Shown here one piece after another: positions 9,513 to 24,821 of a stretch of DNA of 64,000 nt. The notes under the pieces were generated by a model that was given only the letters and a program-made list of their open reading frames with translations, did not search any database and was not told the DNA's origin. The DNA lies in IMG/VR virus record IMGVR_UViG_3300035670_000149, positions 1-64,000 of that record, one strand, 5' to 3'. Every line of letters starts with the position of its first letter. The first letter of the stretch is position 1. This DNA comes from a virus. The position numbers and the translations under genes were made by a program.

Positions 9513-9983
9513 TCAAATAGTCATCAAGTCAGCACCACATGCTTGGAACAACATATAAAACTGCCACAAAACTTCCACTTCAAATTCATGGAATGTTAGA
9601 TTTTCTTTTGTAGAATCTAATCTTTGACAACTATTTTTATCTACAACGACGGTAGGAACTGTTTCATGTTTTTCTGGTGCAAACAAATACGTCTTACAAT
9701 TAACATATGCTAAACTATTTGCAATCGGAGAATCATTCCTTGTGCTGATTCCAAGAATCAAATCTGCATGTTTAGCAGCATATTCAATCCACGGAAGATG
9801 CCATGGTTGATCTTTAGATAGTGCAGAAAGATGAACAGCATCTGGAGCAAAACAGAATTTACCAAGATACCTATTCATATCACTTGCAACATGTTGGGCA
9901 ATAGCAAGATTTCCGCCATTTCCAATAATAGCAATACTGTTTGATTGGTTGACCAGTTCAATTAGATCTAAAGAAATCGTCAC
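9513..9983 (-). CDS. SIS-domain sugar isomerase (GmhA-like)
   Basis: 156 residues. IAIIGNGGNLAIAQHVASDM (residues 17-36) is the phosphosugar-binding loop of SIS domains, and the following segment KFCFAPDAVHLSALS resembles GmhA (sedoheptulose-7-phosphate isomerase), the first step to ADP/GDP-heptose. Compared with GmhA (about 190 residues) it is short, and one active-site half looks reduced. It overlaps the HAD gene by 26 bp and is the last gene of a five-gene sugar cassette. Likely converts a phosphosugar for surface glycan synthesis; substrate inferred. Confidence 0.7.
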   Translation of the reverse strand: MTISLDLIELVNQSNSIAIIGNGGNLAIAQHVASDMNRYLGKFCFAPDAVHLSALSKDQPWHLPWIEYAAKHADLILGISTRNDSPIANSLAYVNCKTYLFAPEKHETVPTVVVDKNSCQRLDSTKENLTFHEFEVEVLWQFYMLFQACGADLMTI

Positions 9984-10284
9984 TGTTTACTCCTTTATCG
10001 TCAATGTAAATGTCGCCAGAATATTTTCCAAGAATGAGTTTAGTAAACTTACATCCCCAAGTTTCTAGTTGATTATATGTGTAATTATACCACTTTTGAT
10101 GAGCATTGTGAATAGATCCATCATATTCTCCCATTCCACGAGCAGTGTAGTAGATAATTTCATGTCCTTCATCAAAGAGTTGATTTATCTTCTCAATGCG
10201 ATCATAATAAACTTTACCAGTTCCAAATCCTGGATTGTTTACATGTTCACAGATTGTTCCATCTATGTCTACGATGTATTTCAT
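9958..10284 (-). CDS. HAD-family phosphatase
   Basis: 108 residues. MKYIVDIDGTIC contains the nucleophile motif DxDGT; YYTARGMGE supplies the motif II Thr, and the segment GDIYIDDKG near the end carries the acidic motif. This is the compact form found in capsule and LPS gene clusters. In this cassette it could remove phosphate from a heptose or Kdo-8-phosphate-type intermediate (inference from neighbours). It overlaps kdsB-like by 38 bp. Confidence 0.75.
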   Translation of the reverse strand: MKYIVDIDGTICEHVNNPGFGTGKVYYDRIEKINQLFDEGHEIIYYTARGMGEYDGSIHNAHQKWYNYTYNQLETWGCKFTKLILGKYSGDIYIDDKGVNSDDFFRSN

Positions 10285-10972
10285 CTTTTACCACTTCAAT
10301 GTCAGATAAACGATCAACGGCATGTGTTCTTGTTTGAATATTAAATGGTCTTACTGGTACTTTTCCAATAAAACCTAACGTATCAAGACTAGCACAGTCT
10401 TCTACCATACGCAAGTCATACTGTCCGAATTTTGAAATCGTATCGTAGTCATAAACGTAAAGACCAGATATGCCAAAAATGTGACGATTGATCATCCATT
10501 CTTTTTCTGGATTCCTCGATAACCAAATGATACAATTGTTGTTTACAACTGCCTTTACACAATCTTCATCCGCAAGATCATTTTCATCAATATTGTAAAT
10601 TGCCTGAACCATCTGATGTTTATGATCAACTGCATATTGAATCATTGCGTCCATGGCAGTCACATTCATGCATGGTTCATCACCTTGAAGATTGACAACA
10701 TAATCTGGACGACGATCTAACATGTGAGAGCACAGATAAACTCTATGCGTACATGTAGGACATTTTTCAGTAATGATACACTTGTGCCCATAATTTGTCA
10801 CAACATCATAGATGTCCTGATCTTCAGTTGCAACAACAATCTCATCAATTTTAATACTTTCTTTTGCACGATCAATTACATGCAAAATCATCTCTTTTCC
10901 TTTGATTTTGTATAATGGTTTGCCAGGAAATCTTGATGATCCTAATCGAGCAGGAATAATACAAGTAATCAT
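10247..10972 (-). CDS. kdsB: CMP-Kdo synthetase-like cytidylyltransferase
   Basis: 241 residues. The N-terminus ITCIIPARLGSSRFPGKPL is the nucleotide-binding signature of 3-deoxy-manno-octulosonate cytidylyltransferases, and YVVNLQGDEPCMN (near residue 90) is the second conserved motif (NxQGDEP). The length matches KdsB. The enzyme activates Kdo or a related keto-sugar as the CMP-sugar for transfer. ATGA overlap with the upstream transferase-like gene. The closely related CMP-sugar synthetases for other acidic sugars cannot be excluded. Confidence 0.8.
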   Translation of the reverse strand: MITCIIPARLGSSRFPGKPLYKIKGKEMILHVIDRAKESIKIDEIVVATEDQDIYDVVTNYGHKCIITEKCPTCTHRVYLCSHMLDRRPDYVVNLQGDEPCMNVTAMDAMIQYAVDHKHQMVQAIYNIDENDLADEDCVKAVVNNNCIIWLSRNPEKEWMINRHIFGISGLYVYDYDTISKFGQYDLRMVEDCASLDTLGFIGKVPVRPFNIQTRTHAVDRLSDIEVVKDEIHRRHRWNNL

Positions 10973-11967
10973 AGTTCAGGAATCAGTTTAGCAACTTCAG
11001 GATGATACTCCATTTTATCATACATTTTACACTTCATCTCAAGTTTTTCTATCGCTTTGTCTTTATCATATAACGAAAGAGGAACTGCTTCAGGAATGAT
11101 TCTACCTGTAGAGTTTCCATAGAACCAATCATCCCACATTCTACCATGATTCTCAGTCAAACGATTTGAATAAAAGTTTAACATGTAAAGAGATTTGAGT
11201 AATTGTTCTGGTGTTTCCCTTTTGTGTGGACACAGAAACAATTTGACCATGCTGGATATAATTTCACGATCATCTACATTCTGTATCCAAAGATCTTCAA
11301 ACTTCTTGTGAATTAGTTCTAGATTGGCATAGGTATCAATCGTACTCTCTTTGTCAAAGCGATAGAAAATATCACCAGGATCGTAATAACGAACGATTGC
11401 ACCACTATAATATGCATAAAGAGTTGCTGATGTAAAGAGTGGGAAATAAAATAACTTAAACTTTCCCATTGCCACAGCAAGACCTAATTGCCATTCTTCA
11501 ATACCTGGATCATTGAAAATGCTGATAATTTTCACATTTTCCAATCCTTCATATGCAAAGGCACGATACCATTCATCCTTTTGTTCTGCAGGTGCCATTG
11601 CATAAACTGGTTCATTAGAAGTTGATACGATTTGTCTAAAGTTTTCGTAGACAACCTTATTGAAATCAATTCCAGTTGCAATATCTCCCTTTGGAAGAAA
11701 GATGCAGATACCTTTTCTTTCTTGCCTTGGAATCAGTGCATCAGCATAAACAAAAGGACTCGCACCTAGGTGAACATAATATGATGGTTTTGTGAGTTTG
11801 TTTTGTAAATACTCACTCCAGATGTAAACACTGGAGCACATGAAGTCAGCATAGAACTCTTTACGTCCCATGGTTTCTGTCTGCACCCCAGGAATAAAAT
11901 TATAATCTAAAAACTGGTCAGTTCCTGCCCAATAGTTGAGAAGTTCTTTAGTTCCAAAACGACTCAT
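10969..11967 (-). CDS. Transferase-like protein of the sugar cassette (GT-B-like?)
   Basis: 332 residues. Conserved features shared with the protein at 22310-23278: WAGT/WTGV near the N-terminus, then an ASPFVYADAL / VSPFCYGLEL segment, then a hydrophobic strand with ICIFLPKGD / IVFLPRSD, and later FYFPLFTSATLYAYYSGA followed by VRYYDPG. The last segment resembles the donor-binding part of GT-B glycosyltransferases (Ser/Thr, then helix, then small residue, then V-x-Y). Coupled to kdsB-like by an ATGA overlap, so it may use the CMP-sugar. Enzyme class is inference. Confidence 0.5.
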   Translation of the reverse strand: MSRFGTKELLNYWAGTDQFLDYNFIPGVQTETMGRKEFYADFMCSSVYIWSEYLQNKLTKPSYYVHLGASPFVYADALIPRQERKGICIFLPKGDIATGIDFNKVVYENFRQIVSTSNEPVYAMAPAEQKDEWYRAFAYEGLENVKIISIFNDPGIEEWQLGLAVAMGKFKLFYFPLFTSATLYAYYSGAIVRYYDPGDIFYRFDKESTIDTYANLELIHKKFEDLWIQNVDDREIISSMVKLFLCPHKRETPEQLLKSLYMLNFYSNRLTENHGRMWDDWFYGNSTGRIIPEAVPLSLYDKDKAIEKLEMKCKMYDKMEYHPEVAKLIPEL

Positions 11968-12323
11968 AGTTGATTATCATCAGTGTTGAATAGGTTATTC
12001 ATCTCTTCTTCTGTTAGAATATCTTTTTGATAGAGAACTTTGAGCATCTTGTGCAGTTTTCTTTCAAAGTTTCTATGAAGTTTGAGATCTTCTCCATCCC
12101 AATCTGGATTGAATCTCCACCCATCAGTTGGATTGAATTTATATTTTTTCTTGTACCAATTCTTTGGTTCTTCTACATCTTCATGAAGAACGTAGTAGTG
12201 AGGTAGATCTGGAATCATGGTATTGTCAATCCACCACTGACCCAGATCTTCATCAAATCTGATTGGGATAAAGTCTGGAAAAAGATATACGCTTTCTTCG
12301 TATTCGTTACAAAGGGTCTTCAT
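11964..12323 (-). CDS. Hypothetical protein, first gene of the sugar cassette
   Basis: 119 residues, acidic and tryptophan-rich (GQWWIDNTMIPDLPHYYVLH). ATGA overlap with the transferase-like gene. No family recognised; the context suggests a role with the transferase or its acceptor. Confidence 0.6.
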   Translation of the reverse strand: MKTLCNEYEESVYLFPDFIPIRFDEDLGQWWIDNTMIPDLPHYYVLHEDVEEPKNWYKKKYKFNPTDGWRFNPDWDGEDLKLHRNFERKLHKMLKVLYQKDILTEEEMNNLFNTDDNQL

Positions 12324-12345
12324 ATTCGCTCAAGATGATGTGATT

Positions 12346-12374
12346 ATTATAGATGAGTTTTTGAGTTATGTCAA
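12346..12374 (-). promoter_or_regulatory. Perfect consensus promoter of the sugar cassette
   Basis: TTGACA (12369-12374), 17 bp, TATAAT (12346-12351) on the minus strand. The -35 box overlaps the last codons of the upstream adhesin gene. It gives the cassette (12323 to 9513) a host-polymerase promoter, separate from the late promoters of the fibre genes. Confidence 0.8.
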
Positions 12375-13243
12375 ATTATGGTATAAGTTTCTACTGCAGA
12401 TCCTGGTGGTGCAGATGTGTCATCAACAACTACTACGTTATTTACAACAATAAGAACTTTTCCAGTAGTGCCTGGGGCGTTTGGATATGGGCTAGGATTA
12501 TTATATGTTCCACTTCCACCAGAGGGACTACCTGGAGCTCCATTTCCTGACAGATTTGTAGTTGATGTAATTGTAAAAGAACCAAATCCAGGTTGAGTTA
12601 CTGTTCCGGAATTAACATATCCTGATCCTCCACCTCCTCCTGCATCATATCCACCATTAGTGCCACCACCGCCACCACCATACCAACCACCGCCGCCGCC
12701 GCCGCCTTCGGTGGGGGATGCGCCATTCCCACCTAACCACTGACCTCCTGAACTTGCGCCTGATCCGCCGCCACCGCCGGCATTTTGAGTGGCACCACCA
12801 CCCCGTAAACCAAAATCTGGAATCTCTACTGCAGTTGTACCAGAAGGTCCACCCCCAGCACCGCCTTGTGCGCTATCATATCCATCATTTCCGCCACCGC
12901 CGGCACCGCCAGCAACTCCCAATACATAAGTTCTACCTGTAGTGCCATCTACTGGACCAACAAAAGCTGCAGAAAACCCGCCAGCTGCGCGAGACCCGCC
13001 TCCTCCAGTATAAAAATTTCTTGCTCCATCTCTAGATCCAACAATATATCCAATAACTGTTCCTGGATTAGCAGTTCCTTGTATTTGTACCCATCCGCCG
13101 CCGCCTGGCGCGCCGCCCCTGCCCGGTGTACCAAACCCACCCCAAAGATAGATTTGTATATTTTTTGGTCCGGAGGCCCCCCTTAATTTTTTTCTATTAC
13201 CAAATCCAAAAGATTGAGAAATTCTTGATACAATAGGTGCCAT
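12371..13243 (-). CDS. Glycine-rich tail adhesin
   Basis: 290 residues. From residue 35 onward there are long runs of Gly with small and aromatic residues (GGGGGGGWYGGGGGG and others), then a C-terminal beta region ending VETYTII. This is the composition of polyglycine-sandwich adhesins such as gp38-type receptor-binding proteins. It follows the fibre gene at 13243 with 1 bp overlap, like the gp37-gp38 pair in T-even phages. Likely the receptor-binding tip. Confidence 0.75.
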   Translation of the reverse strand: MAPIVSRISQSFGFGNRKKLRGASGPKNIQIYLWGGFGTPGRGGAPGGGGWVQIQGTANPGTVIGYIVGSRDGARNFYTGGGGSRAAGGFSAAFVGPVDGTTGRTYVLGVAGGAGGGGNDGYDSAQGGAGGGPSGTTAVEIPDFGLRGGGATQNAGGGGGSGASSGGQWLGGNGASPTEGGGGGGGWYGGGGGGTNGGYDAGGGGGSGYVNSGTVTQPGFGSFTITSTTNLSGNGAPGSPSGGSGTYNNPSPYPNAPGTTGKVLIVVNNVVVVDDTSAPPGSAVETYTII

Positions 13244-14262
13244 CAGAAAAATCCGCCAGAAACAATTCCAAATACTTCGTAATTAGCAGCAGAACTTGCT
13301 GAACCAATTGTATTTACTCCAACAAAATTATAAACTGTGTATCCATTGGTGGTTGTGACACCTGAAGTTGCCTCGTTTCTAGAACCTCCAGCAAACTTCA
13401 CTGCTCTTTCTACACCATTTAGTCTAACAAACGTATGACAACTGCGACCAGTTCCTGTTGTTCTTAGAATTGCAGAAACAGAAATTGAATGATTGTCAAA
13501 AGAACTATCAGTTGGAATTCCTTCAACTCTAATTACAACATCAGCAGAAGGATTATCAAAATAGATAATATTTGCAGTGGATGTATATGTGCAGACTCCA
13601 ACACTTGATGATGCTGATACTCTAACCATCTTTTCTGCGACGTTAGAGAATCTAGATTCATTCGGAATTACAACGTTAGTGATTGTAGTAACACCGGTAA
13701 TTGTAGTATTACTTAGATTTGCTTGACCACTAATTGTAGTAATTCCACCAGTAACTTGGAGACCGTTTCTAGCAGTAATCAATCCAATTGAGTCTACATT
13801 AGTTACATCATCATAAGTCAAAGTACCACCAACAGTTACATTTCCAGCAAATGTTGCTGCAACACCAGAAATATTTCCACTGAACTGTGTTGCAGTGACA
13901 ACTCCCAATGCATTGATATGTCTTGCACTTAGATCTGCAGTCAAAGAAAGATTAGAACCCGTAGCACCTGGTCCTAATCCAGTGGCACTACCAGCATTAG
14001 TTGCAGTGCCATTAAAAGTATTTGCGGTGATGATGCCAATACCAGTTCCATCAATAGAGACAGTTCCAAAATTACCTTTAGATGCCGTAATTACGCCAGA
14101 GTTTCCATCAATAGAGACAGTTCCAAAATTACCTTTAGATGCCGTAATTACGCCAGAGTTTCCATCTAGGGTTATACCAATTCCAATATCTATTGGTTGT
14201 GATGGAGATGTTCCTAGCCCAGATCCAACTGCTGCTAGATTTGTAGCTTTTGTTATTGCCAT
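13243..14262 (-). CDS. Tail-fibre-like structural protein
   Basis: 339 residues from the ATG at 14262 (MAITKATNLAAVGSGLGTSP); an ATG three codons upstream also exists. Contains two identical 19-residue units (GNFGTVSIDGNSGVITASK) and GVSTF-like repeats. The C-terminal part (residues 210-340) is a non-repetitive domain. Late promoter at 14282. The following adhesin gene overlaps by 1 bp, so the two are probably one fibre and its tip. Confidence 0.7.
   Translation of the reverse strand: MAITKATNLAAVGSGLGTSPSQPIDIGIGITLDGNSGVITASKGNFGTVSIDGNSGVITASKGNFGTVSIDGTGIGIITANTFNGTATNAGSATGLGPGATGSNLSLTADLSARHINALGVVTATQFSGNISGVAATFAGNVTVGGTLTYDDVTNVDSIGLITARNGLQVTGGITTISGQANLSNTTITGVTTITNVVIPNESRFSNVAEKMVRVSASSSVGVCTYTSTANIIYFDNPSADVVIRVEGIPTDSSFDNHSISVSAILRTTGTGRSCHTFVRLNGVERAVKFAGGSRNEATSGVTTTNGYTVYNFVGVNTIGSASSAANYEVFGIVSGGFF
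14047..14160. repeat. 57-bp in-frame tandem duplication
   Basis: Two copies of a 57-bp block, which I read as identical base for base, encode 19-residue units of the fibre protein. Confidence 0.85.
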
Positions 14263-14281
14263 TACCGACAAATTTTTTAGT

Positions 14282-14289
14282 TATTTATC
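14282..14289 (-). promoter_or_regulatory. T4-type late promoter
   Basis: Minus-strand GATAAATA followed by ACTAAAAA; 20 bp upstream of the fibre gene start at 14262. Overlaps the stop of the last oxygenase gene. Confidence 0.7.
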
Positions 14290-14911
14290 AGAGCAATAAT
14301 TCGCTTATTCCTACCATTCCTTTTGGAAATATATTGAAAGATAATGAATAACGATCTTTGTTTGATAGATTTGGTTTCACAGAATGAGAAAGACCAGAAC
14401 TGAATAATAATAGTGTTCCAGTTACAGCAGGAACAGTATAATGTGGGGTGTTATATGCATTGAATTTTGTATGTGTAAATGGGAGGGAAATTTGATGATA
14501 AGCATGGGAACATCCCATTGCACTTGCATTATGAAATACAATATCGCCGGAATTTTCTGGAGCATCAATGTAGAGAACTCCACTAAAAATAGATCCTGTA
14601 TGATTATGCATTACACAATGATGTCCATAGGAATGTCTCAATGCCCATGATCTTCCATAATCAAAAACAAGATCATCATCAATCAGATACACATCTTTAG
14701 ATAATTTATCAACGTTACCACAAATATGTTGTTTTATATTTGAAAATATTTTATGGTCTAAGATTGATTTGTTTTTTGACCAATCGCCATTACCAATATG
14801 AACTGGTTCATACTCAAGATTCTTCACATATTCAACTACTTCATTAGTAATGAGATGCTGAATATGATCAATCACCAACGGAATTGCAAAAATAGGTATA
14901 ATTTCTGTCAT
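14288..14911 (-). CDS. 2OG-Fe(II) oxygenase-like protein (TIGR02466 type)
   Basis: 207 residues. The metal-site region is VMHNHTGSIFSGVLYID (near residue 100), the second histidine is in SSGLSHSVKPN (near 172) and the 2OG-binding arginine in DRYSLSFNIFPK. This is the small oxygenase type common in marine phages and resembles the protein at 14908. It is the last of five oxygenase genes in a row. Substrate unknown; fibre protein residues or a host glycan are inferred from context. Confidence 0.7.
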   Translation of the reverse strand: MTEIIPIFAIPLVIDHIQHLITNEVVEYVKNLEYEPVHIGNGDWSKNKSILDHKIFSNIKQHICGNVDKLSKDVYLIDDDLVFDYGRSWALRHSYGHHCVMHNHTGSIFSGVLYIDAPENSGDIVFHNASAMGCSHAYHQISLPFTHTKFNAYNTPHYTVPAVTGTLLLFSSGLSHSVKPNLSNKDRYSLSFNIFPKGMVGISELLL

Positions 14912-15495
14912 GAGAACGATATATTGAAGGCTACTGAAATTCTCTCTTGATCTGATTTATTTGAGGTGACCGAATGATTTAAGTGGGATGGAAACAATAT
15001 CATTAACCCTTCTTGAGGTTCAACATAGAACCAATCATAAGCATTAGTTGATTTTTTAAACTCTTCACTATAGTTTGATAGTGTTTTGTACTGTTGAAAA
15101 CTGCAAGGAGATTCAAAAACTATATTGCCACTATTTTTTGGTACTTTTAACCATAAAACCCCAGATAAGTCACAACCTGGATGATTATGAGAATGATTAT
15201 AATTTCCCGTATCATTACAATTTAACCACATACTATTCATTTTAGCAGTGGAAAAATTATTGAAAATTTGTTTATTCGCAAAGAAACTTTCTAATTGAGT
15301 ATCTATCAAACTTTTGATTAGATTGTCTTCTTTTTGATTGTAATCATCTGTTGATTGCCACCCGCCAGCATTTGATTTTTTTACTCCAGATGATTTTGAT
15401 TTTTCTTGATGCACATATGATATTAAGTCATTTTTATGGTAAGAAAAATTTTCTAAAAAGAAAGTATGAATAATGCAAGGAAAAATTGTAATCAT
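14908..15495 (-). CDS. 2OG-Fe(II) oxygenase-like protein (TIGR02466 type)
   Basis: 195 residues. Motifs HSHNHPGCDLSGVLWLKVP, then SHLNHSVTSN and QERISVAFNISF. Relative positions agree with the preceding protein, so the two are paralogues. Its stop overlaps the next start (ATGA), and its own start overlaps the upstream gene by 1 bp, so the five oxygenases are translationally coupled. Confidence 0.7.
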   Translation of the reverse strand: MITIFPCIIHTFFLENFSYHKNDLISYVHQEKSKSSGVKKSNAGGWQSTDDYNQKEDNLIKSLIDTQLESFFANKQIFNNFSTAKMNSMWLNCNDTGNYNHSHNHPGCDLSGVLWLKVPKNSGNIVFESPCSFQQYKTLSNYSEEFKKSTNAYDWFYVEPQEGLMILFPSHLNHSVTSNKSDQERISVAFNISFS

Positions 15496-16061
15496 TATTT
15501 TTGAAGTGTAAAGACACAGACAAATCTATGTTTTCCTACAGACGGAAAAACATTCGTATGAAAATACTTACCATCAAACAGTATAACCTTTCCTGCCTTT
15601 GGAGTTATTTGTTTTAGTATATCTAAACTTTGACCTTGATCAATTGATATGAAGGTAGGACCTGTATCATAATACTTGTCAAATATAATCGTTTCTCCAT
15701 CACAATCATTCAAGTACATCAAAACAACATAATGATCATCTGTATAATCTATATGTGGTTCCGAAAATTGAGTATCATGATGAATGGTCGAATTTATACA
15801 TGCTCGTGTTACATTGGAAAAGGAAATATTATGTTTATAGCAAAAGTTTACCACAATACTATAGAAAAAGTCAAAATATACGGATTTTCTTACTTCACCA
15901 AGTTCTACTCTTGGCATCAAAGTATGACTAAAATATGGAAATTTTTCTGTAGTATATGAGTGCCGATAATAAAACGGCAAATCTGCATTTTTTAAGACAT
16001 GATAATCAATTTGCTCCAAAATTTTAGATGGTATTCCACATTCGTCTTCAATAAAAATCAT
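15495..16061 (-). CDS. 2OG-Fe(II) oxygenase
   Basis: 188 residues. HxD in EPHIDYTDDHYVVLMYLND, the distal His in DGKYFHTNVFPS and the 2OG arginine in GKHRFVCVFTL. YLND-x-x-x-GET after the HxD strand is the pattern of prolyl-hydroxylase-like oxygenases. It sits in the middle of the five-gene oxygenase block. Confidence 0.75.
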   Translation of the reverse strand: MIFIEDECGIPSKILEQIDYHVLKNADLPFYYRHSYTTEKFPYFSHTLMPRVELGEVRKSVYFDFFYSIVVNFCYKHNISFSNVTRACINSTIHHDTQFSEPHIDYTDDHYVVLMYLNDCDGETIIFDKYYDTGPTFISIDQGQSLDILKQITPKAGKVILFDGKYFHTNVFPSVGKHRFVCVFTLQK

Positions 16062-16567
16062 GGGTTATATTGAAATGCTATTGAAAGTCTACCAAAATCA
16101 TTCATCAAAGGAGTTGGAGGAATGATTTTGTGTTGAATTCTTCCATTAAAAACAACTGCTCTACCTGGTTTTGGTCTTACAATTCCTCCTCTACGAAACT
16201 TAGTGCCTGACCCCCAATACCATTTCCAAACGGGATTTACATAAAAAATTACAGTGCTTCCCCATTCGTCGGTATGATATTCAAAATGTTCAAATGGTTT
16301 GATGCAGTTTATAGAAACCTTATAAAGATTGTTTGTTTCTGGAATGTTTTTTTCTTTAATTTTATTGTGCAAATAACTTACCAAGGGGTCATCATGCATA
16401 ATTTCCCCAATCATAGGTTGTCTTATTGTTCTACCAAAGGACATTCTTTTTACTTGCTGTCCTCTATAATCATCAATTTTATTCCAAATAAAATCATCAG
16501 TATTCAAAAAACTATAGATGTCTCTGACTTCATCTTGCTTCAAAAAATTATCGTAAATTGTAATCAT
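16058..16567 (-). CDS. 2OG-Fe(II) oxygenase
   Basis: 169 residues from the ATG at 16567 (MITIYDNFLKQDEV). The motif FEYHTDEWGSTVIFYVN carries HxD, NGRIQHKIIPPTP the distal His and FGRLSIAFQYNP the arginine. The unusual insert VWKWYWGSGTKFRRGG lies between the strands. ATGA overlaps on both sides. Confidence 0.75.
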   Translation of the reverse strand: MITIYDNFLKQDEVRDIYSFLNTDDFIWNKIDDYRGQQVKRMSFGRTIRQPMIGEIMHDDPLVSYLHNKIKEKNIPETNNLYKVSINCIKPFEHFEYHTDEWGSTVIFYVNPVWKWYWGSGTKFRRGGIVRPKPGRAVVFNGRIQHKIIPPTPLMNDFGRLSIAFQYNP

Positions 16568-17109
16568 GATACAAAACTTAACCAACTGGAAATTATATAT
16601 TTGGTCTCACTCGACGAAGTAAGACCTTTGTGAGCATGTGTCCACTCAGAAGGCCAAATAACAAGTTTTCCTTGTTTTGGTTTTATGAGTTTTTTTTGAT
16701 GATAGAATAGGGTTTCTCCGCCATCGTGAACATCATTCAAATACAGCATCCACACCAGTATTCTAGCACAGGTTTTAATCGTGCTTCTTTCGCAATGCAA
16801 CTCATGATATGCTTGTCCTGGATAATACCGTTTGAGTGATATATTTTCTATTTGACCAAAACTGCTTAGGTTTTTTAGAAATGGATATGTTTTTTCATAT
16901 TCATGCAATTCAAGTTGCAAGGTTTCTAATAAACAATCTAGTTCAGGATGATTTGGAGAAAATAATACTTCAGTACAATCCTTCTTATTTTTATTCAAAC
17001 CTCCAATAGTTTCTCCATCTCGTTGAAAATTTTTAAGTTCTTCAAATAATGATATCAGTTTTTCACAATTTTCTCGTGAGAGTGCATTATCTTTTTCAAA
17101 AATAAACAT
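16564..17109 (-). CDS. 2OG-Fe(II) oxygenase, prolyl 4-hydroxylase-like
   Basis: 181 residues. LHCERSTIKTCARILVWMLY carries HxE as the metal site, followed by YLNDVHDGGETLF, the distal His in EWTHAHKGLTS, and the lysine-containing C-terminal strand KYIISSWLSF. The combination matches prolyl 4-hydroxylase-type oxygenases more closely than the other paralogues here; these use Lys rather than Arg to bind 2-oxoglutarate. First of the five oxygenases, starting 1 bp into the end of a glycine-rich adhesin gene. Confidence 0.75.
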   Translation of the reverse strand: MFIFEKDNALSRENCEKLISLFEELKNFQRDGETIGGLNKNKKDCTEVLFSPNHPELDCLLETLQLELHEYEKTYPFLKNLSSFGQIENISLKRYYPGQAYHELHCERSTIKTCARILVWMLYLNDVHDGGETLFYHQKKLIKPKQGKLVIWPSEWTHAHKGLTSSSETKYIISSWLSFVS

Positions 17110-17972
17110 TATGTGCTTAAATAAAGTCTTCCTAACGTTCCAGCATTTCCAGCAGTTCCTCTCACAGGATCGGATGGATTTCCAACAGTTCCTCTAGATC
17201 CGCCAAGATTTGATGGAGATGTTACTGTGGGATGCACATAAGAACTTCCGCCACCGCCACCTGTTGCAGCAAGACAACAAATATCTGGACCACCTTGACC
17301 TCCCCAATATCCAGAACCCCCGCCAGATCCTCCACCATAACCAGCACCAGGTCCTCCTTGTAAAGGCCAAACAGTATAACCAGGACCACCACCGTTAGTT
17401 GATTGATAACCACTACCAGGTTGCCCCGATGTTCCACCTCCAGCTCCTGCTACCTGCCCTCTGCCACCATCATCAGAATCTGTTGCGCCTCCGCCACCGG
17501 CAACTACCCTCGCATTGGCCTGCGAAACTGATGAAGCAAAAACTCCATACGCGCCGCCACCAAGAGAAGGTCCAACAACCCCAAAATTTGAATTCATAAT
17601 TAAAGTATCTCCCGTGGTTCCTGGCAAATACCCACCAGCAAACCCTCCAGCTCCAGATGGATATCCTTGATTTGGTTGTCCACCACCACCCCAAGCCCTA
17701 ATTCTAAGATTATATGGTCCCTGAGCAACAAAAGTATGTTGAACTGTTGGTTGAAAACTCAGAGCCCCGTTAGTTACAAAACTCCATGTGCCTGGACCAG
17801 AAATTGTTGCTGGAACTGTAAAAGTATCTGAAATTGCGGAAGAAAAAACTTGTCTCCAGGTCCCAGCGTCTTTAATATGAACTGTAGAGGAACTTCTCCA
17901 AACTCCACCATCTTTTACATGAATACCAGTTGCGGATCTCCAGGTTCCTCCGTCTTTAATTTGCGTTGCCAT
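17109..17972 (-). CDS. Glycine-rich adhesin with KDGGTWR repeats
   Basis: 287 residues. The N-terminus has three 13-15-residue repeats of the type IKDGGTWRSATGIHV, a motif found in phage tail fibres; then a beta domain, then a Gly-rich region (GGGGGSSYVHPTVTSPSN and others) typical of adhesin tips. It lies directly upstream of five oxygenase genes with 1 bp overlap. Likely virion receptor-binding protein, possibly a substrate of the oxygenases (inference). Confidence 0.75.
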   Translation of the reverse strand: MATQIKDGGTWRSATGIHVKDGGVWRSSSTVHIKDAGTWRQVFSSAISDTFTVPATISGPGTWSFVTNGALSFQPTVQHTFVAQGPYNLRIRAWGGGGQPNQGYPSGAGGFAGGYLPGTTGDTLIMNSNFGVVGPSLGGGAYGVFASSVSQANARVVAGGGGATDSDDGGRGQVAGAGGGTSGQPGSGYQSTNGGGPGYTVWPLQGGPGAGYGGGSGGGSGYWGGQGGPDICCLAATGGGGGSSYVHPTVTSPSNLGGSRGTVGNPSDPVRGTAGNAGTLGRLYLST

Positions 17973-17978
17973 ATCTTA

Positions 17979-18677
17979 TCAAACCAAATAAGGACCAGAT
18001 GGTTGTGGTGGATAAAAATCCCTTGCAGAAATCATTGATCGAGTATAAGGTGATACATCACCAATAATTTCTGGCAAATCTCTAAGTTGTTGTCTATACT
18101 GCTTAATTTCAGTAGTGAGTAATTTTCCAGTTTCAGTTGCCTGAATAACAAGATAATCTGTATTTTTTAGAAGAAGATCTCTTGTTCCTCTCAAAATGTT
18201 CCATTTTTCAGTATTCAATTCTTCATCAGTAAATCTTGTTATTTCATATACTTTAGTGATGGTTAACTTCTTATGATCAAGAATCCATTGATCATCTGGT
18301 TTTGTTGCCTTGATTTTAATAGTATCTTCATCACCAACATCTGGTTCAACTACTTTATAAGTTTTCCAAGTAATTGAAATTGTTTTATCATCATCACTAA
18401 TTGCCCACTCTTTAATAGGATTTTTGATATAAAATTCTTTATCATTTGCTGTTGGCACATCATTAGCATTGGTGATTCTTCTCCAACTCTCATTATAATA
18501 CAAATAGTCATCATCAACAAATGCACCGTTGTCATAAATCCAACGAGGATGCATTCTTTCTGTATTATAATTAGTTACATATTTTTGTCTTTCTTGACTC
18601 TGATTCCATTCATCAGTTAGTTCTGGAAGAACATCAGGAAACCAATACTTTTTGTCTGTTTCTTCTACCCAACTCAT
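17979..18677 (-). CDS. Virion-associated protein with tail-assembly-chaperone-like C-terminus
   Basis: 232 residues. Residues about 155-210 (WNILRGTRDLLLKNTDYLVI, then KQYRQQLRDLPE) match the phage tail assembly chaperone domain (W..LR..RD.LL..TD, then YRQ.LRDLP) often found at the end of fibre assembly proteins. The N-terminal part is not recognised. Sits between a fibre and an adhesin gene, so a fibre-assembly chaperone is likely. Confidence 0.65.
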   Translation of the reverse strand: MSWVEETDKKYWFPDVLPELTDEWNQSQERQKYVTNYNTERMHPRWIYDNGAFVDDDYLYYNESWRRITNANDVPTANDKEFYIKNPIKEWAISDDDKTISITWKTYKVVEPDVGDEDTIKIKATKPDDQWILDHKKLTITKVYEITRFTDEELNTEKWNILRGTRDLLLKNTDYLVIQATETGKLLTTEIKQYRQQLRDLPEIIGDVSPYTRSMISARDFYPPQPSGPYLV

Positions 18678-18688: not shown

Positions 18689-19912
18689 TTAGTAGATGTA
18701 GTATATATCTCCGTCAGATCCACCAGTAGGAGATCCTCCAGATTGTACAGTTCTATTTCCTATCGCATTTTTCCCAATAGCAGCACCAATTGATCCAACA
18801 GTCATAATACCAGCGATTGACAAATGAGTACCACTAATTGTGACTCCAGTTCCGACCTGAATCTGAGAAGAACCGCCTCTCATTGTAATTGCACTTCCAA
18901 CCTGAACAACATCACTATTACCATTCAAAGTTATTGAACTTCTGCCAATGGTCAGAATTCCAATAACTCTAGCATTTCCATCAACCAATAACGCAGTTGT
19001 ACCAATACCAATGGTTACCGTACCCATACCTGCTGAGGTATTGAAAGTAGATACCCCAGACACCGTAATCGTATTTGAAGTTACGCTTGCTAGTGTTGAA
19101 AATCCAGTAACTCTGAAGTGTGTTGAATTGGACTGAGTAAAAGTTGTAATACCAGATACATTTAGATTTCCACTCAATGTAGACATACCAGAAACTACAA
19201 GAGTGCTGGTACTTACATTATCAGTAGCAGCAATTCCAGTAAGTGCAGATCCATCTCCACTGAAAGAATTTGCTGTGATGATACCAGTAACATTTAGATT
19301 TGTTCCAGTTACTCCTACACCAAGAAATCCGCTAACAGATGTGGAAACTCCGGCAGTTGATGCATATGTTGCAATGCCTGCACTAACCGCGACAGAAGCA
19401 ATGCCCGCACGAACTGCTTCAGTTGCAATACCTGCTCTAGTCGCTTCGGTGGACATTCCAGCACGAACTGCTTCAGTTGCAATACCTGCTCTAGTCGCTT
19501 CGGTGGACATTCCAGCACGAACTGCTTCAGTTGCAATACCAGCTTTAATGGTAGATTGAACAGTGGCATTTAATAATCCACCAACTGAGAGATCACCAGA
19601 GACTTGGAAATTTCCTCTTACGACTTGATCACCATCGCCATTCAGAACATCAGCAACTACAAAATTTTCATGTATGACAAACTCAATAACATCATTTTGA
19701 TTTGCTGGAGTAATTAGAGTTATTGTTGCCCCATCTAATGCAACAAAATCTCTTTGTCCAACTAACTTCACACCATTACGATATACATCAATGGCATTGA
19801 TATTATAACCACCACTAGGCAAAAAATCTACCTGTCCAGCAGTGGCTAACACTGATAATCTTATATTATTTTGGGTTCCAGTAAAACTAGATTGTTGTCC
19901 TAGGTATCCCAT
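18689..19912 (-). CDS. Tail-fibre-like structural protein
   Basis: 407 residues. N-terminal domain (MGYLGQQSSFTGTQNNIRLS) resembles that of the protein at 26257 (FGYVGNQPDSTPV..., DVFLNGIKLV versus DVYRNGVKLVG), likely a shared capsid/tail attachment domain. Residues 120-190 are 9-residue repeats (TEAVRAGMS/TEATRAGIA), then GVSTF repeats. Has a late promoter at 19929 and heads the adhesin-oxygenase transcript. Confidence 0.75.
   Translation of the reverse strand: MGYLGQQSSFTGTQNNIRLSVLATAGQVDFLPSGGYNINAIDVYRNGVKLVGQRDFVALDGATITLITPANQNDVIEFVIHENFVVADVLNGDGDQVVRGNFQVSGDLSVGGLLNATVQSTIKAGIATEAVRAGMSTEATRAGIATEAVRAGMSTEATRAGIATEAVRAGIASVAVSAGIATYASTAGVSTSVSGFLGVGVTGTNLNVTGIITANSFSGDGSALTGIAATDNVSTSTLVVSGMSTLSGNLNVSGITTFTQSNSTHFRVTGFSTLASVTSNTITVSGVSTFNTSAGMGTVTIGIGTTALLVDGNARVIGILTIGRSSITLNGNSDVVQVGSAITMRGGSSQIQVGTGVTISGTHLSIAGIMTVGSIGAAIGKNAIGNRTVQSGGSPTGGSDGDIYYIY
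19407..19554. repeat. 54-bp in-frame tandem repeat
   Basis: Copies start at 19407, 19461 and 19515 and encode 18-residue units (two 9-residue half-repeats). They are almost identical at DNA level. Confidence 0.85.
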
Positions 19913-19927
19913 GTTATCGTTTTTTAG

Positions 19928-20257
19928 TTATTTATCATCTCCAACATCAAAAGAAATCACATCAGATCCTTCAAGACCACAAAAAGGAACTGTATCAGCA
20001 GCAAAAATCATATCTTCACCATAAGAACTCAAATAATTTGGAAATTCAAAAATACCAGTTGCATTATCAGTTTCGGGAAACTCAATGACTTTATCTTCAA
20101 GATCTAGATTATCAATATAATCCATAATATCTGAGATCATTCTCCATTTTGCTTCAGTTTCATACTGTTCATGGTCTCCGAGATTGAATTGCCCCAGATT
20201 TGCATGAAAATTGTAATGAGTTTGAAGATAGGACTTAAGTTTTTCGTATTTAGACAT
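19928..20257 (-). CDS. Hypothetical protein
   Basis: 109 residues, helical N-terminus (MSKYEKLKSYLQTHYNFHAN) and acidic C-terminus. It follows the oxygenase at 20260 with 2 bp spacing and ends at the late promoter for the next fibre unit. No family recognised. Confidence 0.6.
   Translation of the reverse strand: MSKYEKLKSYLQTHYNFHANLGQFNLGDHEQYETEAKWRMISDIMDYIDNLDLEDKVIEFPETDNATGIFEFPNYLSSYGEDMIFAADTVPFCGLEGSDVISFDVGDDK
19929..19936 (-). promoter_or_regulatory. T4-type late promoter
   Basis: Minus-strand GATAAATA followed by ACTAAAAAA, 17 bp upstream of the fibre gene start at 19912. Overlaps the 3' end of the upstream 109-residue gene. Confidence 0.7.
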
Positions 20258-20259
20258 AA

Positions 20260-20943
20260 TTACCTCGCAGCATCTTTTGCACAGTGAGCACGTTGTCCAT
20301 CAGCAAGAACATAATGGAAGAAAATTTGATGATAGTACGTATCATCATTTCTCCTCTTCCATCTACCTATTATATTGCCTTTATGTCTAGATGGCAAGGG
20401 ATCTCTCCAGTGTGGTCGTTCACACCCTTTGTACAACAAACCATCTCCTGGTTCCAAACAAAGGGATCTCTCTTCTCCACCAACAGTTTTGATTTTGAAT
20501 GGCCAGCATTCTTCTAAATTAGTGCTAACATGAACACTTACAGAAATTTCGCAAGCATCACGATCGGCATGTCTTTTTAGTTCTTGCCCAGCAAAATAAA
20601 ATCTATCATAGTAATACGTATTATACAACTTACGTCCAATTATTTCCTCTAATTTCAAACGAATACCAGAATGAACTTCTCTGTATTGGGGATGAGTATA
20701 AGTTGCAATAGAACCTTCTACCTGTTCTTCTAATGGAATATGCTGATATTGATCTAAATTTTTTCCCCAGAAGTTTATTTGCCCTCTGATCTCAGGAACT
20801 GACCTATGCAAATCAATAGAATTCCAAAGATTTTTAATAACTAAGTATCCATCATTTTCAAATTGATCATTTCGAGTCCACGCAGTTCCTGTGTTTTGTC
20901 GTTCTTGCCATAGCAATTGCTCTTCTGTCATTTTTTCTGCCAT
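20260..20943 (-). CDS. 2OG-Fe(II) oxygenase-like protein
   Basis: 227 residues. LKRHADRDACEISVSVHV supplies the HxD, CERPHWRDPLPS the distal His after EPGDGLLY, and HQIFFHYVLADG the C-terminal strand. This is a second subtype often found in cyanophages, different from the TIGR02466 pair. It lies 8 bp downstream of another oxygenase gene. Substrate unknown. Confidence 0.7.
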   Translation of the reverse strand: MAEKMTEEQLLWQERQNTGTAWTRNDQFENDGYLVIKNLWNSIDLHRSVPEIRGQINFWGKNLDQYQHIPLEEQVEGSIATYTHPQYREVHSGIRLKLEEIIGRKLYNTYYYDRFYFAGQELKRHADRDACEISVSVHVSTNLEECWPFKIKTVGGEERSLCLEPGDGLLYKGCERPHWRDPLPSRHKGNIIGRWKRRNDDTYYHQIFFHYVLADGQRAHCAKDAAR

Positions 20944-20951
20944 AATTTACC

Positions 20952-21572
20952 TCACTTCCAGCGGGGTCCAACCGTCCATCCAACAAGGGATTTGCGGGTT
21001 CCTTTTGTAACTTTTAGAACTCTATGTTGTGTGCGAGAATCAAATAGAATTACAGTGCCACGCTTACGGGGAGCAATATAACTATTCCCTGCTTCATCAA
21101 GCAGTTGTAAGTTTCCACCTTCATAATCATCAGGGTCACTCAACTGAACTACAAATGAAAGTTTACGAACCATTTCAATTTTTTCATTAAAATAATCCTG
21201 TGCCAAACCTTCAGCACGATTTCCAACTGCTACTGGTTTGTATTGAGTCGAAAGTCCTGCGTCATTATGCCAACCATAGAACTGTCCCTCAGTATATTTT
21301 GTAAACTGCATTGATTCTCCATCAATACAGTGAAGGTCATAAAGGAAGTTCTCACGATTTGCTCTTTGAATATAATGCCACACAAATCCACCAACCCAAT
21401 GAGTGGTAGGAATCCAGGCGTTTTGTGAGTTTCTTTTTTCTTTATTGAGAGCATCTCCATGAAGTTTGGAGTCTGCCATTTGCTCATCAAACTTTTCTGT
21501 AAGATCTCGTTCGATGATGTGTACAACATCATCTGGTAGATCACTAAAATACCAAACTGATTGAAATGCCAT
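20952..21572 (-). CDS. 2OG-Fe(II) oxygenase, PKHD/PiuC-like
   Basis: 206 residues. TEGQFYGWHNDAG gives HxD, then KLSFVVQLSDPDDYEGGNLQ is the conserved strand pair, RTQHRVLKVTKGTRKSLVGW gives His and Arg. The order and spacing fit the PKHD-type hydroxylases (YbiX/PiuC). First of two oxygenase genes in this block. A protein hydroxylase role is inferred. Confidence 0.8.
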   Translation of the reverse strand: MAFQSVWYFSDLPDDVVHIIERDLTEKFDEQMADSKLHGDALNKEKRNSQNAWIPTTHWVGGFVWHYIQRANRENFLYDLHCIDGESMQFTKYTEGQFYGWHNDAGLSTQYKPVAVGNRAEGLAQDYFNEKIEMVRKLSFVVQLSDPDDYEGGNLQLLDEAGNSYIAPRKRGTVILFDSRTQHRVLKVTKGTRKSLVGWTVGPRWK

Positions 21573-21587
21573 ATGTAAAAAGTTAAA

Positions 21588-22313
21588 TTAAGTTTGCTTC
21601 CACAGTGAAGAAAATGGGCACTTACCGTTTTCAGATCTTTTGGTTCTTTCTTTGATCAGATTCCATGAATGAAAAGGGTGCCATTTTTTTAGTTCATTAT
21701 TTTGAATGACTTTTTTTGATATTTCCTCTGACACCTCTTTTTTGACCAACTTTATCATTATATCATGTTGATTCTTTTTTGTAAATCTAACATTGCATAA
21801 TGGCGATCCTCTGTCAAGAAATATTTCTTCATCTTTCTTTTTTAGAAGAACTCCAATATTTATTGGTCTCTCCCAACAAGATACTGGAAAAGTTCCAGAT
21901 ATTAAATCCAACCCTTTAGAAGTTAATGATGAATGGGGAATTTGCTCAATCCAAAGATCTTCTTCTTCAGTCCAAAACAAAAAGGATAAAAGCATTTGAA
22001 ATTCTGGAAATTCCCCATTATTCCAATCTGAATGAATTTGAAAATAACGATCAAAATTACTCTGCGAATTAAAATCTGCATTCAAAAAATTAGAATTTGA
22101 ATTGTACTTTATTTTCAGAGGAAATTGTTGATATAATGTAAAGGTATTTTTGTAATATTCTTTCCAACCAGGACATTTAGAATGTTGATATCTAGAATCA
22201 TAATCTGAAGTATACTTTTGAGGTGAAATAAAATAATCTTCAGGAAGACAATTTCTATTTTCTGGATCAAAGGATCCAATAGAATAATCATAAAATACTT
22301 TTACAGTTTTCAT
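21588..22313 (-). CDS. Hypothetical protein (DUF6065-like?)
   Basis: 241 residues, starting MKTVKVFYDYSIGSFDPENR with KCPGWKEYYKNTFTLYQQFP (residues 45-70) and ending HPFHSWNLIKERTKRSENGK. The pattern CPG...KNTF resembles phage proteins of unknown function annotated DUF6065, but I am not sure. ATGA overlap with the transferase-like gene upstream, so it is probably part of the same modification step. Confidence 0.5.
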   Translation of the reverse strand: MKTVKVFYDYSIGSFDPENRNCLPEDYFISPQKYTSDYDSRYQHSKCPGWKEYYKNTFTLYQQFPLKIKYNSNSNFLNADFNSQSNFDRYFQIHSDWNNGEFPEFQMLLSFLFWTEEEDLWIEQIPHSSLTSKGLDLISGTFPVSCWERPINIGVLLKKKDEEIFLDRGSPLCNVRFTKKNQHDIMIKLVKKEVSEEISKKVIQNNELKKWHPFHSWNLIKERTKRSENGKCPFSSLWKQT

Positions 22314-23278
22314 AATTTTTGAAAAAAATCAAATACTTTTTTTGGTGGTTCTACTTCAAACTTTTTGATTTTATTGGAAAGAGATTGATATGCACCATCA
22401 TTCAAAATAAGATCTTCATTGATGACAAAATCGATAGATTCTACTCTTTCGTGCAGTAATCTCAATTTTTTATAAAGATTACTGGGAGTTTCTAATAAAT
22501 CTAAAGAAAGAAACTGATATGTGAGAAATTTTTTTTCATCCGTTAGTAAGTCATCTGAAAAAATTTCTTCCAAATATTTCATACCTTGATTCCATTCTTC
22601 TCCTTTATCACTTGGAGCATAATGTTTATGAACATCTTGTTCTATTAGGTTACTTACTTTTTTATGAATATTTCCCTCATCATAAAATTTTACTTTAGAC
22701 CCACAAAAACCAGCATACACAACTGTGCTGCAAAATATTGGAAAATATAAAGTTTTTGCTTTTTTTATGAGTCTTATTAGTTGATCCCCCCAGGAATCGT
22801 CATGTTGTCTGTGAGATATTTTATAAAGATTTTTTGGTATTGCTGATTTCCAAAAGTCTATATCTGATGGGAAAGAGATGTAATATGTTTTATCATCAAG
22901 AGAAAGATTGCCTAAGGATGTTATTATATCATGCTTTTTCTCTTCTGCCAACTCGGTGCTCCAATCTGATCGTGGCAAAAACACAATATCAACTTTTTCT
23001 TCCTCTTTGTAAGAAACTTTATTAAGTTCAAGACCATAGCAAAATGGACTTACACCAAATATCGCATCGTCTGGTATTTTTTTTATTACTTGGTTTCCCC
23101 AAAAATATTTGGGAGGATTATACATGATATAATCATAATCCCAATTTTGAAAAAAATTTTCTTTTGCTATCCCAGGAGTAATTTCATATTTTAAGGAATG
23201 TGTTACACCAGTCCAATTATCCAAATATAATTTCTGACCGTACGCTGGATGATTGGTAATAAAATTTTGCTTTTTCAT
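22310..23278 (-). CDS. Transferase-like protein, paralogue of the one at 10969
   Basis: 322 residues. Shares with the 332-residue protein: WTGVTHSLKYEITPG, GVSPFCYGLEL, VDIVFLPRSD, and LYFPIFCSTVVYAGFCGSKV then FYDEGN. The paralogue lies beside kdsB-like, hence a sugar- or phosphoryl-transfer role is inferred; a GT-B-like donor site is possible. It is coupled to the gene downstream and follows a conserved virion-associated gene. Confidence 0.5.
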   Translation of the reverse strand: MKKQNFITNHPAYGQKLYLDNWTGVTHSLKYEITPGIAKENFFQNWDYDYIMYNPPKYFWGNQVIKKIPDDAIFGVSPFCYGLELNKVSYKEEEKVDIVFLPRSDWSTELAEEKKHDIITSLGNLSLDDKTYYISFPSDIDFWKSAIPKNLYKISHRQHDDSWGDQLIRLIKKAKTLYFPIFCSTVVYAGFCGSKVKFYDEGNIHKKVSNLIEQDVHKHYAPSDKGEEWNQGMKYLEEIFSDDLLTDEKKFLTYQFLSLDLLETPSNLYKKLRLLHERVESIDFVINEDLILNDGAYQSLSNKIKKFEVEPPKKVFDFFQKL

Positions 23279-23293
23279 AACAAAAATAGTAGT

Positions 23294-23770
23294 TTAACCG
23301 TTGTCTGCCTCTGCTTCTTCTTGGGTTCTAGTTGGTGCTATGTAATATTCAGATTCAGGATCAGTGTCACCTGTTGGAACCATAGATTCTCTATATACAA
23401 CCCACGAAGTAGTTTCTTCATCCCATTCATATAATTTATACGTGGTTTGTATTCCTATTGGTCCACCAAGAACCACAAAAACTTCTTGTGGTTTTTGAAC
23501 GGGAGGTTCCCATTCGATTTTATCTCTATTCAGAACCCAACTTGGATATGGAGAATCAGGAATAAACTGATTCAGTTCACTATCATAAGTTATACCAATT
23601 CCACATGGTCCAGGCATATCATCATCTCTGTAATTAGTATATTCAATCCAACTTGAAGGATCTCCAGACTTTCCAGAAAGTATCCAAGACTCAGTAGCAA
23701 CTGTGATCTCAACAACCTTTTTGGTTTTTGGATCAATTTTTGCCCAATTTTTAGGTTTTTCCTGTGTCAT
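23294..23770 (-). CDS. Conserved fibre-region protein
   Basis: 158 residues. The segment GIGITYDSELNQFIPDSPYP then SWVLN and W-E-PP is widespread in cyanophage and marine phage fibre regions. The C-terminus has YKLYEWDEETTSWVVYRESM and an acidic tail. No enzymatic motif; probably virion-associated or a fibre-assembly factor. It follows the glycine-rich gene by 4 bp. Confidence 0.65.
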   Translation of the reverse strand: MTQEKPKNWAKIDPKTKKVVEITVATESWILSGKSGDPSSWIEYTNYRDDDMPGPCGIGITYDSELNQFIPDSPYPSWVLNRDKIEWEPPVQKPQEVFVVLGGPIGIQTTYKLYEWDEETTSWVVYRESMVPTGDTDPESEYYIAPTRTQEEAEADNG

Positions 23771-23774
23771 TTTA

Positions 23775-24821
23775 TCAAAGTTTTGTAATATTCGTTTTCA
23801 CGACAAACCATGCAGCACCATTACTACCTGAGGTATATGATGATCCATTCCCCGGAGTTCCTCCACCACCTGCGGCATAACTACTGGCGGCCGCGCTGGC
23901 AGCACCACCACCAGATCCTCCCGGGGTTCCAGATGGAGAGGCGGCACCAGGAACAAAAGTGCCATAACAATAACCATCAGGTCTTTGAGTTCCTTGACAG
24001 TAAGAAGGACCAGGGGTCCCGCCACCGCCGGCACCACCACCTCCGATTGCTTCAGGAGTCGGTAGCGTAATAGTAAATCCCGAACCTCCTGCGCCACCAC
24101 TACCATTGGCATTCATTCCACCGCCGCCTCCTCCAGTACAACCAACCGGGGTTGCGTTAGATGTTCCTCCACCAGATCCTCCTTGCGATCCTGGTCCAGG
24201 AGATGCATTAAATCCAGCTCCTCCACCACATCCACCAGGTTGACCATTGCCTCCATTAGTACCACCTCTACCACCACCAGTAGCAGTTCTTCCAAAAAAG
24301 GATGTATTGCCACCATTTGCACCAGAACCGCCGCCGCCACCAATGGTTAGTGTTTGAGAATATGAACTAACAAAACCCACAAAACCACCGCTAGCATTTT
24401 TAGAAATTGGTGAGATTGTATTATTTGATTTTATAAAGGAAAATTGTGGAGCAGTTAGATCACTATTTCGCGTGGGAGCTGGTGTTATTGGACCATTTCC
24501 AACAAATCCTCCAGCTCCTCCTCCACCATGAGCACCGGACCCACCTCCTGCGCTAATAAAATATTCAATAGAATTGGATCTAGAACTAACTCTAGTAGAA
24601 TTACCAATTACATCGTCTGCATGTCTTGAGACATATCCAGTTCCATTGGAAACTTTCCAATTTACAGTAGTATTAGACGTTGCCTTAAAATATGAATTGC
24701 CACCAGAAGACCCCAAAGAAGATGAAGGGGAGTCAATTCTAAAATCAAACACTCCACCAGTTTCAAATCTTCCACTCAATCTATTCTGAGATCTGAGTCT
24801 TCTATATTTTTTATTTGACAT
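23775..24821 (-). CDS. Glycine-rich tail adhesin
   Basis: 348 residues. Basic N-terminus (MSNKKYRRLRSQNRLSGRFE), then a beta domain, then glycine-rich blocks (GGGGGSGANGG, GGGAGGGGTPG, and others) to residue 330 and a C-terminus ending VVKTNITKL. Composition as in polyglycine-sandwich receptor-binding proteins. Upstream of a transferase-like and two oxygenase genes. Confidence 0.7.
   Translation of the reverse strand: MSNKKYRRLRSQNRLSGRFETGGVFDFRIDSPSSSLGSSGGNSYFKATSNTTVNWKVSNGTGYVSRHADDVIGNSTRVSSRSNSIEYFISAGGGSGAHGGGGAGGFVGNGPITPAPTRNSDLTAPQFSFIKSNNTISPISKNASGGFVGFVSSYSQTLTIGGGGGSGANGGNTSFFGRTATGGGRGGTNGGNGQPGGCGGGAGFNASPGPGSQGGSGGGTSNATPVGCTGGGGGGMNANGSGGAGGSGFTITLPTPEAIGGGGAGGGGTPGPSYCQGTQRPDGYCYGTFVPGAASPSGTPGGSGGGAASAAASSYAAGGGGTPGNGSSYTSGSNGAAWFVVKTNITKL

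Follow-up and report, generated by a model that had tools for sequence, protein, structure and literature searches.

Cyanomyoviruses carry clusters of 2-oxoglutarate (2OG)-Fe(II) oxygenase genes (T4-GC 104/240/412/611; Sullivan et al. 2010, PMC3037559). In the portion of this 16-cyanomyovirus paper on which we draw, the enzymes are explained by host nitrogen sensing and are not linked with fibres; the corresponding portion of the S-SCSM1 paper (24 2OG genes) explains them by host reprogramming, again with no link to fibres. Our search of the open literature found no paper joining cyanophage oxygenases with post-translational modification of tail fibres. Here we describe the fibre region (9.5-24.8 kb) of a 64-kb stretch of DNA (hereinafter the window) out of the 72.6-kb IMG/VR virus record IMGVR_UViG_3300035670_000149, the source of which is an uncultured virus of marine cyanobacteria. 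The region encodes oxygenases of the same families. In contrast to the metabolic, not fibre-directed, role proposed in that portion of PMC3037559, the oxygenase array here directly follows a putative tip gene, within one late-type unit that also holds a stalk gene and a chaperone gene.

Mimivirus encodes the collagen lysyl hydroxylase L230 and a collagen glucosyltransferase (PMC9546862), namely a viral hydroxylase and a viral glycosyltransferase that act on the virus's own fibrous protein. The prolyl 4-hydroxylase (P4H)-like oxygenases and the transferases with a glycosyltransferase B (GT-B)-like fold described below are reminiscent of this pair, although we found no sequence relation between the transferases, the genes here are separate, and the substrate is only a proposed one. 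Glycosyltransferases of mycobacteriophages are suggested to act on virion proteins, e.g. the capsid (PMC11256854); here, the transferases stand alongside 2OG oxygenases and a putative cytidine monophosphate (CMP)-sugar pathway, in what appear to be cyanophage fibre operons. The CMP-3-deoxy-D-manno-octulosonate (Kdo) synthetases KdsB/KpsU are found with KdsC/KdsD-type enzymes. The KdsB-like gene of the window likewise lies beside a phosphatase gene and an isomerase gene, but the isomerase is nearer to GmhA, the phosphatase is nearer to EcbF/BcbF, and no KdsA was noticed, no search being dedicated to it. Temperate phages encode sugar transfer in Gtr-type O-antigen modification clusters, whereas the cassette described here is without membrane proteins.

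In our preferred reading, held at a probability of about 0.45, the region has two layers: units 2 and 3 would be late fibre operons with tip-modifying enzymes, and the sugar cassette would be a separate early unit. Specifically, units 2 and 3 would each begin at a late-promoter-like element, followed by a fibre-region or stalk gene, a small protein or chaperone, a glycine-rich tip, and enzymes. Unit 2 has five 2OG oxygenases; unit 3 has GTb, two 2OG oxygenases and others, and its small protein comes after the tip. Made together with the fibre, these enzymes would act during assembly, most likely by hydroxylating and glycosylating proteins of the fibre tip or neighbouring proteins of the virion. 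The cassette, dn119-GTa-KdsB-HAD-SIS, would be a five-gene unit lodged in the fibre region and started early from a host-type sigma-70 promoter. It would provide a Kdo- or heptose-like sugar activated with CMP, together with a GT-B transferase that uses this sugar, either as a common donor supply for fibre transferases or for placing a foreign sugar on the host surface. The features of the region, by descending position, are as follows.

25258-25272, − strand: late-promoter-like element (TATAAATA..., degenerate copy), start of unit 3
24850-25230, − strand: f248, small fibre-region protein, first gene of unit 3
23775-24821, − strand: GLY3, glycine-rich putative tip adhesin, 348 aa, 27% Gly
23294-23770, − strand: TFA23, small protein (phrog_7759), possible adhesin chaperone
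22310-23278, − strand: GTb, GT-B-like transferase, GTa paralogue
21588-22313, − strand: u216, phrog_17480, no function assigned; absent in relatives L017 and G001
20952-21572, − strand: OXY209, P4H-like 2OG-Fe(II) oxygenase, HND motif
20260-20943, − strand: OXY202, putative 2OG oxygenase (phrog_2954), HAD motif
19928-20257, − strand: u199, small protein without family match
19921-19935, − strand: late-promoter-like element ATAAATAACTAAAAA, unit 2
18689-19912, − strand: FIB19, tail-fibre stalk-like protein
17979-18677, − strand: TFA18, tail-fibre assembly/chaperone protein (PF16778)
17109-17972, − strand: GLY2, glycine-rich putative tip adhesin, three KDGGTWR-type repeats
16564-17109, − strand: OXY165, P4H-like 2OG oxygenase, HCE motif
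16058-16585, − strand: OXY160, phrog_274 2OG oxygenase, HFE motif
15495-16061, − strand: OXY15, phrog_274 2OG oxygenase, HID motif
14908-15495, − strand: OXY149, PF13759 oxygenase, HNH motif
14288-14911, − strand: OXY14, PF13759 oxygenase, HNH motif
14274-14288, − strand: late-promoter-like element ATAAATAACTAAAAA, unit 1
13243-14271, − strand: FIB13, tail-fibre stalk-like protein
12371-13243, − strand: GLY1, glycine-rich putative tip adhesin, 31% Gly
12346-12374, − strand: perfect sigma-70 promoter TTGACA-N17-TATAAT of the sugar cassette
11964-12323, − strand: dn119, conserved first cassette gene, no function assigned
10969-11967, − strand: GTa, GT-B-like transferase, putative new family
10247-10972, − strand: KdsB-like CMP-sugar synthetase
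9958-10284, − strand: HAD phosphatase (EcbF/BcbF-like), DxD and DD motifs intact
9513-9983, − strand: SIS sugar-phosphate isomerase (GmhA-like)
9493-9507, − strand: late-promoter-like element before the next fibre gene (7891-9483)

An earlier note on this DNA had described three modules, each with an adhesin gene followed on the same strand by mostly overlapping enzyme genes. All ORFs that it named are present on the − strand, and the three glycine-rich genes have glycine fractions of 0.31 (12371), 0.26 (17109) and 0.27 (23775); their position and composition suggest a role as adhesins. A small protein gene (23294) separates the third adhesin from its enzymes, and the sugar cassette is separately promoted. 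Most genes of blocks 1 and 2 overlap, whereas block 3 has gaps, mostly of 2-15 nt.

The promoter-like elements define the units. The 15-nt core ATAAATAACTAAAAA is identical at 9493, 14274 and 19921, with a degenerate copy at 25258 before f248, contrary to the view that the modules have no DNA in common. The element splits the region into units, each running from a fibre-region gene through the tip and the enzymes. Specifically, ATAAATAACTA occurs exactly three times on the − strand of the window, each time 18-25 nt upstream of a fibre gene (7891-9483, FIB13 and FIB19); with a fourth copy at 51919 on the + strand, there are four in the window versus 0.05 expected. The element resembles the T4-type (gp55-type) late promoter element. 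At the sequence level NATAAATA lies near the gene start, as in a T4-type late unit, and 9 of the 21 late-type NATAAATA sites on the − strand of the record lie 8-60 nt before a gene (p 5e-6). In the relatives read, the element is conserved before the homologues of FIB19, FIB13 and the 7891-9483 gene. Because a late-type element opens each, two units have the look of late fibre operons: that of GLY2 with its five oxygenases, and that of GLY3, which also holds GTb and two oxygenases.

The cassette has a different kind of start. A perfect sigma-70 promoter, TTGACA-N17-TATAAT, lies 22 nt upstream of dn119; four perfect sites are present in the window versus 0.05 expected, and the others precede genes that look early. 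The hexamers of the cassette promoter are conserved in relatives (perfect in L004, one mismatch in L005 and L007, visible in L008), with diverged spacers. Because the cassette has its own sigma-70 promoter, conserved in relatives, it looks like an early unit inside the late region.

Comparison with relatives separates the three modules. In contig 3300017753_000116, GLY3, TFA23, GTb, OXY209 and OXY202 are all present (54-79% identity), and GLY3 is 54% identical in L017. In G001, blastp finds neither GLY3 nor TFA23, and only remote similarity is indicated by a shuffle test (z 10 and 7); GTb is 31% identical, versus 83% for OXY209 and 71% for OXY202. Thus GLY3, TFA23 and GTb appear to move or diverge as a set in G001, with better conserved flanks. 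GLY2 and its five oxygenases are kept in the same order at 59-70% identity. In module 1, all three close relatives (L005, L007 and G001) keep dn119 and GTa at 72-76% identity (GTa, 72-73%), whereas GLY1 has no similarity to the gene in the same place in L005 or G001 (shuffle z 0.4 and 0.5), and in L007 the gene before the cassette is not glycine-rich. Because the cassette stays constant while the preceding adhesin changes or is absent, and because it is separately promoted, it is not matched to GLY1. The proposal that each enzyme set is matched to its adhesin therefore appears to hold for module 3 and to fail for module 1; module 2, conserved as a whole, is uninformative.

Across phage genomes, 2OG genes are found in the vicinity of glycine-rich genes at an above-chance frequency. 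In ten cultured phage genomes with 149 2OG genes found by iterated profiles, and with rotation of positions as the null, 46 of the 149 lie within six genes of a glycine-rich gene versus 15.8 expected (p<0.0005), and 17 lie within three genes versus 8.5 expected (p 0.03). With fibre genes as the target, 14 lie within six genes versus 13.0 expected, the fibre-motif detector being weak in cultured genomes; the main association therefore rests on glycine-rich genes. Among 143 non-redundant IMG/VR loci, 25 of 232 starts of 2OG arrays (10.8%) come directly after a glycine-rich gene, compared with 33 of 1376 other genes (2.4%; odds ratio 4.9, P 6e-8), a P value that is optimistic because the loci were fetched via enzyme genes, mostly 2OG, and related loci are not independent. 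The association check proposed earlier gives a mixed answer: in the cultured genomes proximity is enriched but direct adjacency is not, and in IMG/VR adjacency is enriched. Individually, 2OG arrays lie near tail-fibre genes in S-SM1, S-RSM4, Mosig and S-RIM44. In P-SSM2 (NC_006883.2 18953-28270), a 2OG oxygenase gene (27677-28270) lies three genes after collagen-like fibre genes.

Many 2OG genes lie elsewhere in P-SSM2, S-CAM1 and S-CAM4. This fits the idea that the region is a hypervariable cargo site, in which the 2OG enzymes would act on host metabolism or on the level of 2OG, as in the nitrogen/NtcA idea, and would have come to lie beside adhesins by hitch-hiking; a role of this kind is also the one proposed for cyanophage 2OG enzymes in the portion of PMC3037559 used here. 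The late fibre-coupled expression signals, the enrichment near glycine-rich genes, and the fixed order in which five 2OG genes from three families accompany GLY2 argue against it, and we regard it as unlikely.

All seven predicted oxygenases match Pfam or PHROG profiles. OXY14 and OXY149 match PF13759 (8.7e-18 and 1.6e-24). OXY165 and OXY209 match PF13640 (4.7e-12 and 2.8e-15), and both also match phrog_61. These four are above the Pfam cut-off; the remaining three belong to the superfamily by PHROG profile and weak Pfam similarity, OXY15 (15495) and OXY160 (16058) matching phrog_274 strongly and PF13640 only under the curated cut-off, and OXY202 (20260) matching phrog_2954 (8e-58). An iron-site motif and a distal His are present in all seven, the motif being HxD/E in five and an invariant HxH in both PF13759 proteins. 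In an alignment of phage PF13759 oxygenases, HxH is invariant where most 2OG oxygenases carry HxD/E, which suggests an all-His iron site. PHROG labels phrog_274 as 'DNA endonuclease V' and phrog_2954 as 'ferrochelatase'; because the Fe-site motifs are present, these labels seem wrong. The same names (PHROG 274, 2954/3531) are also found on RefSeq phage products adjoining 2OG genes.

At 36780-37834, upstream of the large tail-fibre gene, another 2OG oxygenase gene (37397-37834) sits immediately next to a gene for Mom-like DNA modification (PF25680, 9.7e-20). Together with the PHROG names of DNA enzymes and a halogenase beside the 2OG array of S-RIM44, this pair could indicate that the targets of the oxygenases and the glycosyltransferase are not fibres but nucleic acid or small molecules, giving hypermodified bases or natural products. 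Searched against the PDB, however, the joint OXY165/OXY209 profile finds protein-acting enzymes, with prolyl 4-hydroxylases on top (1.2e-11) and procollagen lysyl hydroxylases weaker, and the units themselves look like fibre operons; we therefore consider such substrates very improbable. A fibre-region protein (29889-30752) has an extended (Pro-Ala)n repeat on which a prolyl hydroxylase might act. The repeat was rejected as an obligate substrate because G001 retains oxygenases with no detectable repeat. The KDGGTWR repeats were rejected as a general oxygenase partner, no such gene being present in the ten cultured genomes.

The genes GTa (10969) and GTb (22310) code for paralogous transferases (25% identity, E 4e-15), in agreement with the earlier prediction of two transferase-like genes. 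Pfam, PHROG and NCBIfam give no match for either, and their joint profile has no significant PDB sequence match. The AlphaFold2 (AF2) model of GTa, built with 11 relatives, has a predicted local distance difference test score (pLDDT) of 85 and a predicted template modelling score (pTM) of 0.88. Foldseek places mostly GT-B enzymes on top (prob 0.97-1.0, E from 2e-4), including methylmannose polysaccharide mannosyltransferase, TarM and BshA, with SdgB lower; receptor structures among the matches are presumably fusions with GT-B glycogen synthase. The predicted fold suggests that GTa and GTb form a new small GT-B family. The KdsB-like protein predicted by the earlier note is confirmed: it matches CTP_transf_3 (5e-32), and its top PDB match is the CMP-Kdo synthetase 1gq9 (8.8e-25); the NCBIfam KdsB profile gives 2.6e-48, yet under the curated cut-off, and the motifs IPAR..S.R.PGK and QGDEP are present. 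The HAD protein is weakly EcbF/BcbF-like and the SIS protein weakly GmhA-like. Motifs are intact in the KdsB, HAD and SIS proteins.

Among 50,697 phage records, the cassette has a counterpart in only one, Marine virus AG-345-D19, which has relatives of GTa, kdsB and SIS and a HAD. No relative of the GTa family turned up when bacterial genomes were searched by pattern, and a search of bacterial chromosomes for the SIS family gave two matches, a phage-like contig carrying curli-type genes within a metagenome-assembled genome (MAG) and one weak match. One contig of a Rhodobacteraceae MAG (L380), which has curli-type genes along with a kdsB-SIS pair, resembles pelagimyophage DNA that was binned with a bacterium. 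In L079 and AG-345-D19, the glycosyltransferase gene ends a fibre unit and KdsB-SIS-HAD converge from the opposite strand; therefore the transferase, more than sugar synthesis, is tied to fibres.

The lipopolysaccharide (LPS) of two marine Synechococcus strains contains neither Kdo nor heptose (PMC4515613), so a Kdo/heptose-like sugar would be foreign on the virion or on the host, if the host is Synechococcus-like. Such a sugar would alter the surface of marine Synechococcus, and the cassette promoter is of early type. Both points would fit sugar genes, and perhaps oxygenases, that edit the host surface (e.g. LPS) to mask receptors and exclude other phages, receptor-related genes collecting by the fibres; pelagimyophage fibre-region glycosyltransferases have been interpreted likewise (PMC7029224). 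On the other side, the cassette proteins have no strongly hydrophobic or transmembrane-like stretch of the kind expected of GtrA/GtrB-like proteins, no lipid-carrier or flippase gene was recognised with the cassette, GTb belongs to a late-type unit and changes along with its adhesin, and the oxygenases look soluble and late. Host-surface editing as the whole explanation is thus rather unlikely. For the cassette itself, the early-type promoter and its constancy favour a general role, in donor supply or surface editing. Also on the unlikely side, in our estimate, is a fully joined scheme in which the early operon would make a host-foreign CMP-sugar and the late adhesin operons' own GT-B and 2OG enzymes would decorate each tip, so that a chemical layer of host-range variation would lie over sequence variation.

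Several observations weigh against the two-layer reading. Direct adjacency of 2OG and glycine-rich genes is not enriched in the ten cultured genomes (4 versus 3.4 expected), and P-SSM2 is mostly a counter-example, with 1 of 24 2OG genes near a glycine-rich gene. The joint change of GLY3, TFA23 and GTb could be explained as one recombination block without function. The AF2 model of GLY2, meant to reveal any polyglycine II sandwich tip of the S16 gp38 type, reached a pLDDT of 33, and the Foldseek TM-scores of GTa are only ~0.3. The cassette was not found in cultured cyanophages; in L010 and L011 it lies away from the fibres, after a helicase gene and a small gene. Its sigma-70 promoter was not found in the more distant relatives L009, L010, L011 and L080. 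No KdsA-like gene was noticed beside the cassette in the window or in the relatives read, where no dedicated search was made; the host may supply KdsA.

The fibre region is bounded on the − strand by a large tail-fibre gene (30749-36751, phrog_529) and a baseplate/fibre connector gene (7891-9483, phrog_677); within 9.5-24.8 kb it contains three glycine-rich genes, seven 2OG-Fe(II) oxygenases, two paralogous transferases and the kdsB/HAD/SIS cassette. A fourth, weaker glycine-rich gene at 28382-29884 has no enzyme genes downstream. FIB13 holds an exact 57-nt tandem duplication (14046-14159), and FIB19 has repeats of 27-nt period at 19341-19547. The tail-fibre and baseplate proteins encoded in the window belong to families akin to those of T4-like cyanophages, and two ORFs of the window are read as psbA and a high-light-inducible gene. 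A near-DNA search of phage records found no match.

Hydroxylation or glycosylation of the fibres is a plausible proposal. Cyanophage 2OG-Fe(II) oxygenases are many, and their role has so far been explained as metabolic. Oxygenases in late-type fibre operons, their occurrence near glycine-rich tips above chance, and a transferase varying with its adhesin make virion modification a testable alternative. If it is true, the way in which abundant marine phages recognise their hosts would depend on chemistry made by enzymes, which comparison of fibre sequences alone would miss.

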